From Halovulum marinum (GTDB lineage: Bacteria; Pseudomonadota; Alphaproteobacteria; Rhodobacterales; Rhodobacteraceae), in assembly GCF_009697225.1 (NCBI RefSeq), contig NZ_WIND01000002.1, positions 1 to 64,000 on the forward strand: a stretch of DNA of 64,000 bases. The letters run 5' to 3'. Below the pieces are notes generated by a model, which was not told the DNA's origin, did not search any database, and saw only the letters and a list, made by a program, of their open reading frames with translations. The position numbers and the translations under genes were made by a program. The stretch's first letter is position 1; every line of letters begins with the position of its first letter. Below, in pieces: positions 54,070-59,559 of the stretch.

Positions 54070-55182
54070 TCAGCCGTTCTGCGCCAGCAGGTAGCCGACG
54101 CCGGCCGCCAGGAGCAGGCCCGCGACGACGGCCAGCGCGATCTTCCACCGCGACCAGGGCCGTTCGCCCTGCACCGCGCCGGTGCGGCCGTTGACGACGA
54201 AGCGAAAGGTCTGTCCGCCGTACTTGTAGGCGGCCAGCCAGATCGGCAGCAGCACATGCTTGAAGGTGACGTCCGAGACCTCGGTCTCGACCTGTTCGAT
54301 GCGCTGGCGGTCGCCGCCGATGTCGAACTTGATGTCGCGGCGGATCGTGGCGTCGATGATCGCCCGCGCCTCGTCGAACCCGTCGGCCAGCTCGACCTGG
54401 TACGCCTCGGCCCGGAAGCCCGCCAGGTATTGCGGCTGATACGGCTCCAGCGCGGTCAGGTCCCACGGCGACAGCCGGTCGGTATACTTCTTCGGCAGGC
54501 TGCGCGAGGCCAGCACCAGCACATCGTCGAAGGCCCGCGCCACCCGGCCCGAAACCCGGGTCCAGCGGACCTTCTGCACCCGCTCGCTGCGGTTCTGGCT
54601 CTGGCCGTTGACGGTCACCCGGCGGGTGCGGGTCTCGTGGTAGACGGTGCCGCGCTGGCCGCGGTACTGGCTGCGGGTGTCGGCGTCGTAGGTCCAGTAC
54701 GGAACGTAGATCCCCTGCATCCGCCTGCCCTTGCGGGCGTATTGCTGCAAGCCCCCGGGGGCGAACCACAGCCGCCCCAGCCAGTCGGTCATCGCCTTGC
54801 GGGCCTGGTCCTCGGACAGGGCGAACGGCAGGACCGCCGCCGGCTTGATACCCCGGTGCGTGCCGGTGTCGGTGACCAGCGGCGAGGCGCAGAACGGGCA
54901 TTCGGTGGCGTGGGTGTCGGGGTCGAACTCGACCAGCGCGCCGCAGTTCTGGCATTGCAGGACGCGGGTTTCCTCGATGTCGGCCTCGGGGATGCGCGCC
55001 TCGAGCGCGGCGCGGAAGTCGCGCTCGCGGATCGCCCGCGCGCCGGCCCATGGGCCGTCGCCCTCGATCACCTCCTCGTTGCCGCAATGGTCGCAGTGCA
55101 GCCGGTCGGTGCCCGGCAGGTAGCGCAGGTCGGAGCCGCAGTTGCCGCAGGGAAAGCGGTGCTGCTCGACGGTGGGGGTCAT
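54070..55182 (-). CDS. Zinc-ribbon membrane protein of the SPFH-linked stress cluster
   Basis: This 370-residue protein has two zinc ribbons, CGNCGS...CDHCGN (about residues 12-34) and CQNCGA...CPFCAS (about 77-100). A beta-rich middle part (YVPYWTYDADTRSQYRGQRG) follows. Near the C-terminus (after FVVNGRTGAVQGE) one transmembrane helix (IALAVVAGLLLAAGVGYLLA) ends the protein. Related genes are sometimes mislabelled as helicase subunits; nothing of a helicase is visible. It lies 56 bp after the SPFH gene. Confidence 0.85.
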   Translation of the reverse strand: MTPTVEQHRFPCGNCGSDLRYLPGTDRLHCDHCGNEEVIEGDGPWAGARAIRERDFRAALEARIPEADIEETRVLQCQNCGALVEFDPDTHATECPFCASPLVTDTGTHRGIKPAAVLPFALSEDQARKAMTDWLGRLWFAPGGLQQYARKGRRMQGIYVPYWTYDADTRSQYRGQRGTVYHETRTRRVTVNGQSQNRSERVQKVRWTRVSGRVARAFDDVLVLASRSLPKKYTDRLSPWDLTALEPYQPQYLAGFRAEAYQVELADGFDEARAIIDATIRRDIKFDIGGDRQRIEQVETEVSDVTFKHVLLPIWLAAYKYGGQTFRFVVNGRTGAVQGERPWSRWKIALAVVAGLLLAAGVGYLLAQNG

Positions 55183-55238
55183 GGGATGCTCCGGGGGGCC
55201 GGTGGTCTGGGGGGGGGGCCGGTGGTCTGGGTGCGGGA

Positions 55239-56357
55239 TCAGTCGGCCGGCGGCGGCGGCGGCGGCATCACCGTGAACAGCTGCGCCAGCTCGTCGATCT
55301 CGCCGGCGCGGGTCCAGCCGTCGATGCCGGGGGTCCAGACGAAGGTCTCGCGGGTCAGCGTGCCCTGCGCCGCCAGCTTGCCCAGATCGGCGCGGCTGAA
55401 CGGCCCCGAGGATTGCCCGCCGCTGGCGGTGTGCCAGACCTTCTCGACCGGTGGCGGGGGCGGCGCCGATGTCGCCGGCCGGGCGGGGGCCGCGCCCCAC
55501 GGCCCCATCTGCGTGCCCATCGCCATTCCCATGCCGGCACCCATCCCGGCACCCATCCCGGCGGCCATGCCGCCGCCGGCCGGGTTCGACGCGGCCTCGG
55601 TCATCGCCTCGGCGGCCGAGAACCGGGTGTAGGCGCCCAGGTCGCCGACGATCCCCATCGAGGTGCGCTTGTCGAGCGCCTTCTCGACCGCCTCCGGCAG
55701 GCTGATGTTCTCGATGAAGAAGGCCGGCATCGCGATGCCGTACTCGGCCAGCTGCGGCGAGACCCTGGCGGCGATCAGCTTGCCCAGCTCGCCGGTGTTG
55801 GCCGCCATGTCCAGCACCGGGATGCCGCTGGCGGCGATCGCCTGGCTGAACCTGGCGACGATGATGTTGCGGATCTGGTAGCTGATCTCGTCGGTGGTGA
55901 ACTCGCCGTCGGTGCCGACGATCTCGCGCAGGAACAGCGCCGGGTCGGTGACGCGGATCGTGTAGGTGCCGAAGGCGCGGATGCGCACCGGGCCGAACTC
56001 GGGATCGCGGCACATCACCGGGTTCTTGGTGCCCCATTTCAGGTCCTGGAAGCGGGTCGTGTTGACGAAGTAGATCTCGGACTTGAACGGCGACCGGAAG
56101 CCGTGATCCCAGTGCTGCAGCGTGGTCAGGATCGGCATGTTGTTGGTCTCGAGCATGTAGAGACCGGGGGTGAACACGTCCGCCAGCTGGCCCTCGTGCA
56201 CGAACACCGCCGCCTGGCCCTCGCGCACCGTCAGCTTGGCGCCGTACTTGATGGCGTGGCCCTGCCGCTCGAACCGCCAGACCAGCGTGTCGCGGGTGTC
56301 GTCGGTCCATTCGATGACGTCGATGAACTCGCCGGAGAGAAAATCGAAGATGGCCAT
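55239..56357 (-). CDS. SPFH-domain protein with C-terminal GYF-like domain
   Basis: This 372-residue protein has an N-terminal SPFH/band-7-type domain (about 30-250, with VREGQAAVFVHEGQLADVFTP and FFIENISLPEAVEKAL), a Gly/Met-rich linker (AAGMGAGMGAGMGMAMG), and a C-terminal GYF/DUF4339 domain (WHTASGGQSSGPFSRADLGKL). This is the YdjI-like arrangement, thought to form membrane-associated scaffolds. The GYF part should bind proline-rich partners. The ATG at 56357 is chosen because the family starts at MAIFDFLSGEFIDVI. It is 77 bp after the DUF2927 gene. Confidence 0.88.
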   Translation of the reverse strand: MAIFDFLSGEFIDVIEWTDDTRDTLVWRFERQGHAIKYGAKLTVREGQAAVFVHEGQLADVFTPGLYMLETNNMPILTTLQHWDHGFRSPFKSEIYFVNTTRFQDLKWGTKNPVMCRDPEFGPVRIRAFGTYTIRVTDPALFLREIVGTDGEFTTDEISYQIRNIIVARFSQAIAASGIPVLDMAANTGELGKLIAARVSPQLAEYGIAMPAFFIENISLPEAVEKALDKRTSMGIVGDLGAYTRFSAAEAMTEAASNPAGGGMAAGMGAGMGAGMGMAMGTQMGPWGAAPARPATSAPPPPPVEKVWHTASGGQSSGPFSRADLGKLAAQGTLTRETFVWTPGIDGWTRAGEIDELAQLFTVMPPPPPPAD

Positions 56358-56434
56358 GGGTCCGGGCCCTTTCTGAAACCGCCTGCGCGGCTTGTTGTAG
56401 TGCATCGCCGGGCGCCGGGCAAAACCCGGCGTGG

Positions 56435-57346
56435 CTAGCGGATCACCGCGCCGCTGGCGCGCGCGGCGTCGGTGGCGATCTGGCGCAGCATCGGCCGCGC
56501 CTCGTCGGCGCTCATGCCGACGCGCAGGCGCGGATCGTACAGCATCCGCAGCAGGATCTCGTCGTGCAGCGTCAGCAGCGCGAACTCCTCGTCGTCGTTG
56601 AAGATCGACGGGCGCACGCTCTTGCTGTCGTTGAGCAGCCCCAGGGCCTGGGTCATTTCCTCGTGGAAACACGAGGTGCGCATCAGCCCGCGATGCTCGG
56701 CCTTGACCAGCGCCACGGCGATGGCGATGCCGCCGGTGTCCTCGCCGGGCCCGAACAGCGACGCCGAGCACAGCAGGCTGGGTCGCGATTCCCACAGATC
56801 CTGCGCCAGCGCCGCCGGGAAATTGCCCTGGTCGATGATCGCGCTGGCCAGCGCGCGCTGCTCGGCGCGCTCCAGCACCAGCACGATGAAGTTGACGTCG
56901 CCCGAGGGCAGGTAGCGCATGTCGAGACCGGTCAGATCGCGATAGCGCGCCAGAAGCGCCTTGATCTCGGCAAGGTCCGCGTCGCGCTGCGCCGCCGGGA
57001 CGCTGTCGCCGAAGATCACGCCGACGCGCACCGGCTGGGTCCAGCGGATCAGGCGGATCCTCCGGGTGCCGCGCAGCCGGCCGCTGCCCTTGCGGCTGAA
57101 TTCGGTGAAGAAGGCGATCTCCTCGAAGTTCCGCGCCAGGGCGTCCACGCTCAGCGGGGCATCGGGCGGGGTCGTGTCGGTGCGCAGCCCGCCGTCCTTG
57201 CGAATCGCGTAGGCGGTCTGCGCATAAAGCAGTTCCAGCGCCGGGCCGCTGAGGTCGGGCTCACTGCGGGGCGACGGCGCGCATGCCGCCAGCCCCGACA
57301 GCGCGACGGCCGCGAGGGCGCGGCGCAGGGGGGGGAAACGCGACAT
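56435..57346 (-). CDS. DUF2927 putative lipoprotein
   Basis: This 303-residue protein has a lipoprotein signal (RALAAVALSGLAAC, lipobox LAAC with C22). The DUF2927 domain includes TSCFHEEMTQALGLLNDSKSV; the HEE sequence is like the zinc-binding HExxH motif but lacks the second His, so the metalloprotease role of the family is uncertain here. It follows telA directly with no gap, so it is part of the same transcript. It may act in the envelope. Confidence 0.88.
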   Translation of the reverse strand: MSRFPPLRRALAAVALSGLAACAPSPRSEPDLSGPALELLYAQTAYAIRKDGGLRTDTTPPDAPLSVDALARNFEEIAFFTEFSRKGSGRLRGTRRIRLIRWTQPVRVGVIFGDSVPAAQRDADLAEIKALLARYRDLTGLDMRYLPSGDVNFIVLVLERAEQRALASAIIDQGNFPAALAQDLWESRPSLLCSASLFGPGEDTGGIAIAVALVKAEHRGLMRTSCFHEEMTQALGLLNDSKSVRPSIFNDDEEFALLTLHDEILLRMLYDPRLRVGMSADEARPMLRQIATDAARASGAVIR

Positions 57347-58540
57347 TCAGGCGTCGGGCACGGTCTCGCCGACGGTGACGCCGGCCTTGTCCTTCCTGGC
57401 CTTGGCGGCGGCCAGGGTCTCTTTCAGTTCCTGCTCCATCTTGATCAGCTCCTTCTCGGCATCGGCGCGCGCGGCCTTGCCCGCATCGGCGATCGAGAGG
57501 CTTTCCTGGATCGTGGCGATCAGGTCGGCATTGGCCTGCTTGATCGCCTCGATGTCGAACACGCCGCGCTCCATCTCGCGGCGGATCTCGGCGTTGGCTT
57601 CCTTCAGGTTTGAAGCGTTCGACTTCAGCAACTCGTTGGTCAGGTCGGTCGCCTCCTTGACCGCGCCGGCGGCTTCGCGCGAGCGGTGGATGGTCACCGC
57701 CTGCGCCAGCTGCGTCTCCCACAGGGGCACGGTGTTCACCAGGGTCGAGTTGATCTTGGTGACCAGCGACTTGTCGTTCTCCTGCACCAGCCGGATCGAG
57801 GGCAGGGATTGCATCGTGACCTGGCGCGTCAGTTTCAGGTCGTGCACCCGGCGCTCGAGGTCGTCGCGGGCGGCGCGCAAATCGCGCAGCTCCTGCGCCT
57901 TGATCACCGCCTGGTCCTCGGGCGCGTCCTGCACCGCCTGGTCGAGGCGCGGAATGTCCTCGGTGTCCAGCTGCCGGATCCTGGCCTCGCCGGCGGCGAT
58001 GTAGAGCGCCAGCTCGTCGTAGAAATCCAGTGTCTTCTCGTACAGCTTGTCCAGCGACTTGATGTCCTTGAGCAGGACATGTTCGTGGGTCAGCAGGTTC
58101 TCGGTGACCTTGTCGATCTGGTCCTGCACCTCCTCGTAGCGCGACAGGAACATCGACACCGGCTTGGCCCGGCCCAGCAGCTTTTCCCACCAGGACAGCT
58201 GCCGGTTCGGGTCCAGCTCGTCGACCGAGAAGCCGCGGATCGAGCTGACGATCTCGCGCAGGGCGGTGCCGGCGGGGCCGGTGTCCTTGTTCTTGACGCC
58301 GGACAGCATCTCCTGGCTGATCGTCTGCAGTTCGGACTGCGCGCGCGAGCCGAACCGGATGATCGACTGGCTGTTGCCCATGTCCAGTTCCTGCATGCGG
58401 CTCTGGATCTCGGCCTTCTGCGCCTCGTCGGCCTGCTCGACCACGATCAGCTCTCCCTTCGGTTCCGGCAGCGGGGTCTGCGCCACGTTCTCGACCTCGC
58501 TGGCCGCGCTTTCGGCCTTGGTGCGGACTTCGGTGGACAT
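57347..58540 (-). CDS. TelA-family protein (toxic anion resistance)
   Basis: This is a 397-residue coiled-coil-rich protein with LDMGNSQSIIRFGSRAQSELQTIS, the TelA/KlaA signature, then LREIVSSIRGFSVDEL and a highly charged C-terminus. TelA proteins are tied to tellurite resistance and resistance to some membrane-active agents. The start at 58540 has GAGAGG 6 nt upstream. It lies 30 bp after the XpaC-like gene, the usual partner of TelA. Confidence 0.92.
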   Translation of the reverse strand: MSTEVRTKAESAASEVENVAQTPLPEPKGELIVVEQADEAQKAEIQSRMQELDMGNSQSIIRFGSRAQSELQTISQEMLSGVKNKDTGPAGTALREIVSSIRGFSVDELDPNRQLSWWEKLLGRAKPVSMFLSRYEEVQDQIDKVTENLLTHEHVLLKDIKSLDKLYEKTLDFYDELALYIAAGEARIRQLDTEDIPRLDQAVQDAPEDQAVIKAQELRDLRAARDDLERRVHDLKLTRQVTMQSLPSIRLVQENDKSLVTKINSTLVNTVPLWETQLAQAVTIHRSREAAGAVKEATDLTNELLKSNASNLKEANAEIRREMERGVFDIEAIKQANADLIATIQESLSIADAGKAARADAEKELIKMEQELKETLAAAKARKDKAGVTVGETVPDA

Positions 58541-58570
58541 GTTCAACCTCTCAGTTGGGAAGTGCGGCGT

Positions 58571-59461
58571 TCAGACGCCCTCTCGGTGCAGACGTTCGCG
58601 CAGGACCTCGATCTCGACATCCAGCGCGACGCGGTCGTCCTTCAGCAGGTCCTGGCGGTGCTGACGGAAGCTGGTCTCGAGGTCGCCCAGCAGCGCCTCG
58701 TACTCGGCGCGGGCGTCCTCGTCGCGGCGGCGCGTGTAGAGGTCGGCGAACTTCCGGGTCGCGTCGCGTGCGCCGACGAGGTAGACGCCCAGGAACCGGC
58801 GCGCGCGCGTCAGGTCGCGCGGATCGGCCTCGACGGTGCGGAACACCTCGCGGACATGGGTCATCAGCATCTCGACCCGCGCCTCGAGCCGGCGGTCGCC
58901 GATCCGGCGCACGGCGTCCATGATTTCGGTGACGGTTTCTTCTGCGCGGTCGATGGCGCGGGCGACGCGCTCGGCCTCGAAATCGTCGCCGCCGGCGCCG
59001 CCCTTGGCCTTCATCGGATCGAAGCCGAAGGCCAGCAGCTGGGCGCACGCCGCAGCGGCGCCGAAGATGATGCCGGAGGCCAGGTTGAAGCCCGGTGCGA
59101 TGCCGGCCGCAAGGAAAACGCCGATCCCGGTCATCACCGAGGCCAGCAGCTTGCGTGGCACCGCCGGCGGCTTGGCGATCGCGCGCGATGCATAGGCTGC
59201 GTCGGCCTTCAGCCCCTCGTTCAACGTCACCGCCGAACCGATCAGCACGCCGAAGGCAACGAGTTCCACGACCATGCCCAGCGCGTCGCCCGAGATGATC
59301 TCGCCGATGCCGGAGAACAGCAGCGGCAGCGGCACGAGAAACATCGCCCGCGCGGCGATGTTCACCCGCGAGGCCTGCCGGCCGCGGAAGCGCGCGCCGG
59401 GTGCGGCCGAATCGTCGGGGGCGGGATCCGGGCTGAAGCGCCCGCCGTAGCGCCGCGACAT
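58571..59461 (-). CDS. XpaC-like (5-bromo-4-chloroindolyl phosphate hydrolase family) protein
   Basis: This 296-residue membrane protein has about four hydrophobic segments (LVPLPLLFSGIGEII, ALGMVVELVAFGVLIGS, LLASVMTGIGVFLAAG, FGAAAACAQLLAFG) in the first 130 residues. A helical cytoplasmic part follows with RRIGDRRLEARVEMLMTHVREVF. XpaC proteins pair with TelA; despite the name, no hydrolase motif is apparent. Its start shares a base with the stop of the small TM protein gene. Confidence 0.85.
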   Translation of the reverse strand: MSRRYGGRFSPDPAPDDSAAPGARFRGRQASRVNIAARAMFLVPLPLLFSGIGEIISGDALGMVVELVAFGVLIGSAVTLNEGLKADAAYASRAIAKPPAVPRKLLASVMTGIGVFLAAGIAPGFNLASGIIFGAAAACAQLLAFGFDPMKAKGGAGGDDFEAERVARAIDRAEETVTEIMDAVRRIGDRRLEARVEMLMTHVREVFRTVEADPRDLTRARRFLGVYLVGARDATRKFADLYTRRRDEDARAEYEALLGDLETSFRQHRQDLLKDDRVALDVEIEVLRERLHREGV

Positions 59462-59559
59462 CAGAATGCTCCTGCAGCGCCCCAGGCGCGCAGTGCCGAG
59501 AACAGGACAACGGCCAGAAGCACGATCGCGGCGAAACCCCGCAAGGTGCGGTCCCTCAT
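59461..59559 (-). CDS. Small single-TM protein, first gene of the TelA cluster
   Basis: This is a 32-residue protein, MRDRTLRGFAAIVLLAVVLF and 12 more residues, which is a single membrane helix with a positively charged N-terminus. A GGGGGAT lies 6-12 bp upstream of the ATG, and its stop overlaps the XpaC start, so it is very likely translated. It may be an accessory subunit of the XpaC/TelA complex. Confidence 0.6.
   Translation of the reverse strand: MRDRTLRGFAAIVLLAVVLFSALRAWGAAGAF

Follow-up and report, generated by a model that had tools for sequence, protein, structure and literature searches.

The first 64,000 nucleotides of contig NZ_WIND01000002.1 of Halovulum marinum (hereafter the window; the source genome comprises 4.63 Mb in 74 contigs and has a completeness rating of 100%) contain a compact group of six genes, which encode a hydrophobic microprotein, an XpaC-type membrane protein, a TelA protein, a lipoprotein of the DUF2927 family, an SPFH protein, and a tail-anchored protein with two zinc ribbons (hereafter ZnR). 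The six open reading frames (ORFs) all lie on the minus strand, running from 59559 to 54070, each translates without breaks, and the successive intergenic distances from the microprotein to ZnR are a 1-nt overlap, then 30, 0, 77, and 56 nt. ORFs, strand, and spacing agree with an earlier reading made from the sequence alone (the sequence-only reading), which had placed six leftward genes with small gaps here and taken them for an undescribed envelope-stress unit. The features are as follows.

59461..59559, minus strand: conserved single-transmembrane microprotein, 32 aa, residues 4-32 hydrophobic; its stop codon and the XpaC start share one base
58571..59461, minus strand: XpaC-type protein, 296 aa, Pfam PF10112 "Halogen_Hydrol"; a C-terminal domain that looks soluble follows four hydrophobic segments
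57347..58540, minus strand: TelA, 397 aa, PF05816; soluble, helical
56435..57346, minus strand: DUF2927 lipoprotein, 303 aa, PF11150; lipobox Cys22, predicted matrix metalloproteinase (MMP)/metzincin-like fold
56627..56662, minus strand: degenerate zinc-site motif in DUF2927, counterpart of HExxHxxGxxH (E229-E230-x-x-Q233-x-x-G236-L-x-N239-D240)
55239..56357, minus strand: SPFH protein, 372 aa, Band_7_1 (PF13421) plus GYF_2
55287..55436, minus strand: GYF_2 domain (PF14237), residues 308-357 of the SPFH protein
55248..55265, minus strand: poly-proline tail PPPPPP at the SPFH C-terminus, candidate self-ligand of GYF
54070..55182, minus strand: ZnR, tail-anchored, two zinc ribbons, 370 aa, YdjG-like; C-terminal transmembrane segment 345-369

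The Pfam matches have E values of 5e-26 (PF10112), 9e-107 (PF05816), 3e-52 (PF11150), 4.4e-103 (PF13421), and 8.5e-19 (PF14237), and nothing above the Pfam cut-off was found for ZnR, the ribbons of which consist of eight cysteines in two CxxC...CxxC sets (Cys12/15/30/33 and 77/80/95/98). Besides the four hydrophobic segments of XpaC, the single C-terminal one of ZnR was detected, with none in TelA or the SPFH protein, and the TelA gene is single-copy in this genome.

Within a sample of 101 genomes from the order, every one labelled Rhodobacteraceae, TelA is present in 100 and the SPFH protein passes the cut-off in 98, both almost always in single copy; where the two occur together (98 genomes), they lie on one contig and at most 4.1 kb apart in 97. 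Among 80 loci fetched via the SPFH protein, 68 have the XpaC, TelA, DUF2927, SPFH, and ZnR genes arranged as in the window, in order and strand alike, and contig ends cut several of the others. Because of this proximity and colinearity, the association of TelA with SPFH is far from chance, and that of the six genes is well supported: independent occurrence of these genes in related genomes, named beforehand as the outcome that would speak against a unit, was not what we observed within the family.

Several variants were encountered in the family. Three rare Rhodobacteraceae are without the full unit (L091 in G081, L092 in G085, and L095 in G011), one of them keeping xpaC-telA-DUF2927 without SPFH, one a diverged TelA only, and one DUF2927 only. 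In L002, where DUF2927 is missing, an extra XpaC-domain gene devoid of transmembrane segments (L002:5984-6733) separates xpaC from telA. In some 17-19 loci (e.g., L003:8998-9648 and L064:9091-9723), SPFH is split from ZnR by a cytochrome b561-type gene (PF01292), and about 20 of the 80 loci have, immediately before the cluster, a same-strand gene for a TerC-family membrane protein (e.g., L061:3817-4749); neither is found at these places in the window.

Outside the family, the unit comes apart. Across a class sample of 289 genomes, 28 have a TelA match above the Pfam cut-off and 38 a Band_7_1 match, the latter in many cases weak. XpaC-TelA-SPFH-ZnR is kept without DUF2927 in six genomes from four other alphaproteobacterial families, and therefore the association is more than inherited position; three other class genomes have SPFH-ZnR without an adjoining TelA, and elsewhere TelA occurs alone or with a distant XpaC. 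Among plasmid records, those of Vibrio, Comamonas, and Tsukamurella contain SPFH-ZnR pairs, and Enterococcus has an SPFH-ZnR-TPM trio, in which the SPFH protein bears a double zinc ribbon at its C-terminal end and the ZnR encoded between the SPFH and TPM genes aligns end to end with that of the window (26% identity, E 1e-38). From the distribution in the class and on plasmids, the cluster therefore consists of two separable modules, XpaC-TelA and SPFH-ZnR, which are united in some Alphaproteobacteria and to which DUF2927 is a Rhodobacteraceae addition. The notion of one co-conserved unit thus stands inside the Rhodobacteraceae and loses its claim to indivisibility beyond them.

Two further settings of the SPFH-ZnR pair can be mentioned here. 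At L102:8112-14224 and L104:5463-10506, two proteins of about 650 aa each are encoded after the pair, one with a trypsin-like domain and one for which L102 gave no Pfam match, an arrangement that may represent a further module variant. On a Vibrio plasmid (L135:1-4001), the pair adjoins divergent genes with TIR and TRAFs-binding domains, possibly a defense neighborhood.

The same data bear on the view that the locus is a stable neighborhood of separately acting housekeeping proteins, the adjacency of which reflects slow rearrangement only. Synteny is indeed generally high at this locus, since many loci also share gatCA-type genes on the upstream side and, further downstream, a gene for a D-Tyr-tRNA deacylase. 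However, the unit holds together in four other families, its order is kept while intervening and flanking genes vary, and the microprotein and XpaC genes share a stop-start overlap, all of which makes this view improbable.

Each of the two modules comes from families with a link to envelope stress in Gram-positives, where XpaC-TelA is under LiaSR/CesSR control. The pspA-ydjGHI operon of Bacillus subtilis encodes YdjI, an SPFH protein with a C-terminal double zinc ribbon, together with the zinc-ribbon protein YdjG and the TPM protein YdjH (PMC11237479); YdjI requires YdjG and YdjH to localize to the membrane, and PspA requires YdjI to be recruited there (PMC8581546). The XpaC-TelA genes of Listeria belong to the LiaSR regulon, a telA mutant being fourfold more sensitive to nisin and twofold more sensitive to tellurite (PMC12791056), and in Lactococcus lactis the xpaC-like gene rises 10.3-fold and telA1 3.4-fold in the response to membrane-protein stress (PMC3139573). 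The window unit has its PF10112 and PF05816 genes side by side and ordered as in the XpaC-TelA pairs of B. subtilis (xpaC-yaaN), Listeria (lmo1966-1967), and L. lactis (llmg_1115-1116), although these pairs are described without SPFH, ZnR, or DUF2927. With pspA-ydjGHI it shares a Band_7_1 SPFH protein (Band_7_1 was positive in the B. subtilis control) adjoining a two-zinc-ribbon, single-transmembrane protein, a likeness that goes via Pfam and the Enterococcus set, the content of which is that of YdjI-YdjG-YdjH (PMC11237479). Unlike in that operon, the SPFH protein of the window has a GYF domain and a proline tail in place of the C-terminal zinc ribbon, the unit adds XpaC, TelA, DUF2927, and the microprotein, and the genome has neither PspA nor a YdjH: PspA (PF04012) and the TPM domain (PF04536) both gave no match in it, with positive controls.

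Our preferred reading, which we consider fairly probable, is that the six genes form one operon, in which the SPFH/zinc-ribbon and XpaC-TelA modules are joined to build an inner-membrane scaffold that would protect or repair the envelope. The near-zero gene gaps and the microprotein/XpaC overlap count in favor of joint transcription, and the unit is a strong candidate for an uncharacterized membrane-protection system because two pairs that are induced separately elsewhere upon envelope damage stand here side by side with an unannotated microprotein and a protease-like lipoprotein that looks inactive. With regard to the proposal of an undescribed envelope-stress unit, the link to envelope stress is borne out by the families involved, yet the parts are of known kinds and both modules had already been described (PMC8581546, PMC11237479, PMC12791056, PMC3139573). 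It is their combination that appears undescribed: we found no literature joining TelA, XpaC, and SPFH, or covering DUF2927, in a search that was itself incomplete, so that an earlier description may exist.

Besides the indirect nature of the likeness to pspA-ydjGHI, several points weigh against a common scaffold. Both module families are represented in B. subtilis, at separate loci, and therefore the modules need not act together. PspA passes the cut-off in 37 of the 101 Rhodobacteraceae genomes, never beside the cluster, and the unit is present in 37 of 37 PspA-bearing and 61 of 64 PspA-lacking relatives; because 37 relatives carry both, TelA does not simply exclude PspA, and a strict exclusion of PspA by the unit was discarded. 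Finally, the predicted TelA model is poor (predicted local distance difference test score, pLDDT, 70; predicted template modeling score, pTM, 0.52), and its fold matches, including the comparison with ESCRT-III-like and ClyA-like proteins, fall within the range of unrelated helical bundles. Solved structures related by sequence to TelA or DUF2927 were sought and none was found.

A second reading of the locus would make it a chromosomal system of resistance to toxic oxyanions, in which tellurite is detoxified or kept out by TelA and XpaC, with an accessory part for the remaining genes. The family names, the klaB/TelA relatives on plasmids, the TerC-family gene upstream of about 20 of the 80 loci, and the twofold higher tellurite sensitivity of the Listeria telA mutant (PMC12791056) speak for it. 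The unit is nonetheless near-universal and single-copy in a whole family, most of which has no known tellurite exposure. We know of no tellurite link for SPFH-ZnR. Moreover, the Gram-positive pair answers envelope stress, the nisin effect exceeding the tellurite effect (PMC12791056), and we think it unlikely that tellurite is what the locus deals with.

The question had been raised from the sequence alone whether the DUF2927 protein, with an HEE that lacks a second His, is still an enzyme. The predicted model (pLDDT 89.7) matches the catalytic domains of matrix metalloproteinases (Foldseek E 7.5e-4, probability 1.00), with a Z of 12.0 and a root-mean-square deviation of 2.7 over 148 residues against MMP-7. 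Its predicted fold is thus like the catalytic domain of metzincin peptidases (matrixins, MMPs, karilysin), with which the protein shares only about 14% identity and from which it differs by a lipoprotein anchor and by EExxQxxGxxN for HExxHxxGxxH. The zinc-binding HExxHxxGxxH/D was sought in 37 DUF2927 sequences and not found, EExxQxxGxxN being present throughout; E229, E230, Q233, G236, N239, and D240, at the end of the active-site helix, are invariant in them, as are Leu19 and Cys22 of the lipobox-type signal, where the window copy has Ala at +2. Three relatives from other families, all above the cut-off, carry HELAHGFGFAH, HELMHALGFPGH, and HELLHAVGFFNH, and profile alignment with the HELAHGFGFAH relative places E229, Q233, and N239 at the three zinc-histidine positions and E230 at the catalytic Glu. 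The HEE reading was therefore out of register, since it is E229, Q233, and N239 that occupy the ligand positions, and not H228, which is Gln in some copies. As to the enzyme question, the modeled protein keeps the metzincin-like fold and has lost the three zinc histidines, so that it looks like a pseudo-metzincin. Because the motif is strictly invariant, DUF2927 probably retains a binding function, most simply as a pseudo-enzyme; alternatively, the site may hold a different metal.

A bolder version would have DUF2927 act as a periplasmic hydrolase with a non-histidine metal site (E229, Q233, and N239, with E230 as catalytic residue) and the unit work by periplasmic proteolysis. The general-base Glu and a metzincin-like fold are retained, and the substituted positions show no drift across the 37 sequences, but all three zinc-defining histidines, which distant relatives keep, are lost, and other families have the unit without DUF2927; we hold this to be very unlikely. 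Anti-phage defense was set aside, the five proteins having no PADLOC match at E up to 1 and the unit being conserved near-universally on chromosomes.

The window genome has three DUF2927 genes, and the two that were read both have the Glu/Gln/Asn set. A longer paralog (about 465 aa) exists elsewhere in Rhodobacteraceae genomes (L130, L131, and G000:C55:126103-126684), with the Glu/Gln/Asn motif in L130 and L131. We rejected the idea that the C16 copy is the true ortholog and the window copy an intruder, both being about 41% identical to TelA-adjacent orthologs and the sister locus L003 sharing the window copy (58%).

Returning to the proposed scaffold operon, its first ORF is, judging by its conservation, a genuine microprotein. 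In 62 of 72 loci, a hydrophobic ORF of 22-75 aa stops no more than a few bases from the XpaC start, as compared with 0/74 upstream of TelA, 0/70 upstream of DUF2927, 0/79 upstream of SPFH, and 8 of 4000 positions chosen at random. Such an ORF also precedes ZnR in 11 of 77 loci, where it may be the end of a cytochrome b561-type gene. The core of the microprotein is approximately LQKxAyxxLlxLlxxVxxGxxGG. Further upstream, good scores for an element of the form CTTCCCCCTAGC-N17-CCTA(A/C)(G/C)TT were obtained in 16 of 73 loci, as compared with 1 of 219 shuffled sequences. A search of 61 whole genomes for the exact CTTCCCCCTAGC-N17-CCTA form gave two occurrences, each some 1.2 kb ahead of telA, and none elsewhere. 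The element, which is present in part of the family and has no good copy in the window, may be a promoter or operator dedicated to this operon. As CTTCCCCCTAGC-N17-CCTAAGTT, it sits upstream of the microprotein, about 150 nt before xpaC, in L017, L029, L031, L039, L040, L046, L051, and L066, and is also seen at L137:1501-1533 and L138:1501-1533. Sites for RpoE, RpoH, sigma-70, CtrA, and LexA are not enriched upstream of the operon, EcfG-like sites (5 of 73 against 1.0 expected) are too few to use, a consensus scan of the window gave nothing usable, and the main text of the CenR regulon paper does not mention TelA or SPFH.

The GYF domain had been suggested as a possible means of recruiting a proline-rich partner. 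The domain is there, with a GPF/GPY core visible in the GYF_2 domain of SPFH orthologs, but the partner need not be another protein: all 79 near-complete orthologs have a conserved PPP-type tail of their own a few residues past GYF, mostly with a proline-rich linker before the domain, and no such tail was found in the other large proteins of the cluster. The GYF-bearing SPFH members of Actinobacteria and Vibrio likewise have a tail of this kind (PPPLP or similar), whereas members that end in a zinc ribbon, an HTH, or a SHOCT-like end instead of GYF are without it. As domain and tail occur together, the protein's own tail is the first candidate ligand, ahead of an outside proline-rich partner, and GYF may bind it. 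Matches of the SPFH protein to PPR were spurious and of low-complexity type.

If the scaffold reading is right, the soluble SPFH protein would be recruited to the membrane by tail-anchored ZnR and polytopic XpaC, and would oligomerize through the binding of each GYF domain to a proline tail, its own or a neighbor's. The long helical TelA would dock on this platform as a peripheral effector, taking the part that PspA plays in B. subtilis, and XpaC would stand in for YdjH; the microprotein could be XpaC's small partner in the membrane or its regulator, and the DUF2927 lipoprotein a periplasmic or outer-membrane arm that binds peptide without cutting it. We put forward only tentatively the full form of this scheme, namely a phage-shock-protein-like (PSP-like) envelope repair in Rhodobacteraceae in which TelA-XpaC replaces PspA-YdjH on the same SPFH/ZnR platform, with a self-ligated GYF/poly-Pro lattice, a microprotein, and a pseudo-metzincin link to the periplasmic side.

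Were this true, TelA would correspond in function to the ESCRT-III-like PspA, and the role of TelA, long unclear, would be explained. TelA and XpaC are widespread in bacteria, and their evolutionary tie to a characterized SPFH/zinc-ribbon platform gives them a concrete, testable context, just as DUF2927, formerly a domain of unknown function, appears as a metzincin-fold family with both zinc-site and lost-zinc-site members. Since the unit is near-universal and single-copy in a large family, a basic envelope function has probably been overlooked in the Rhodobacteraceae.

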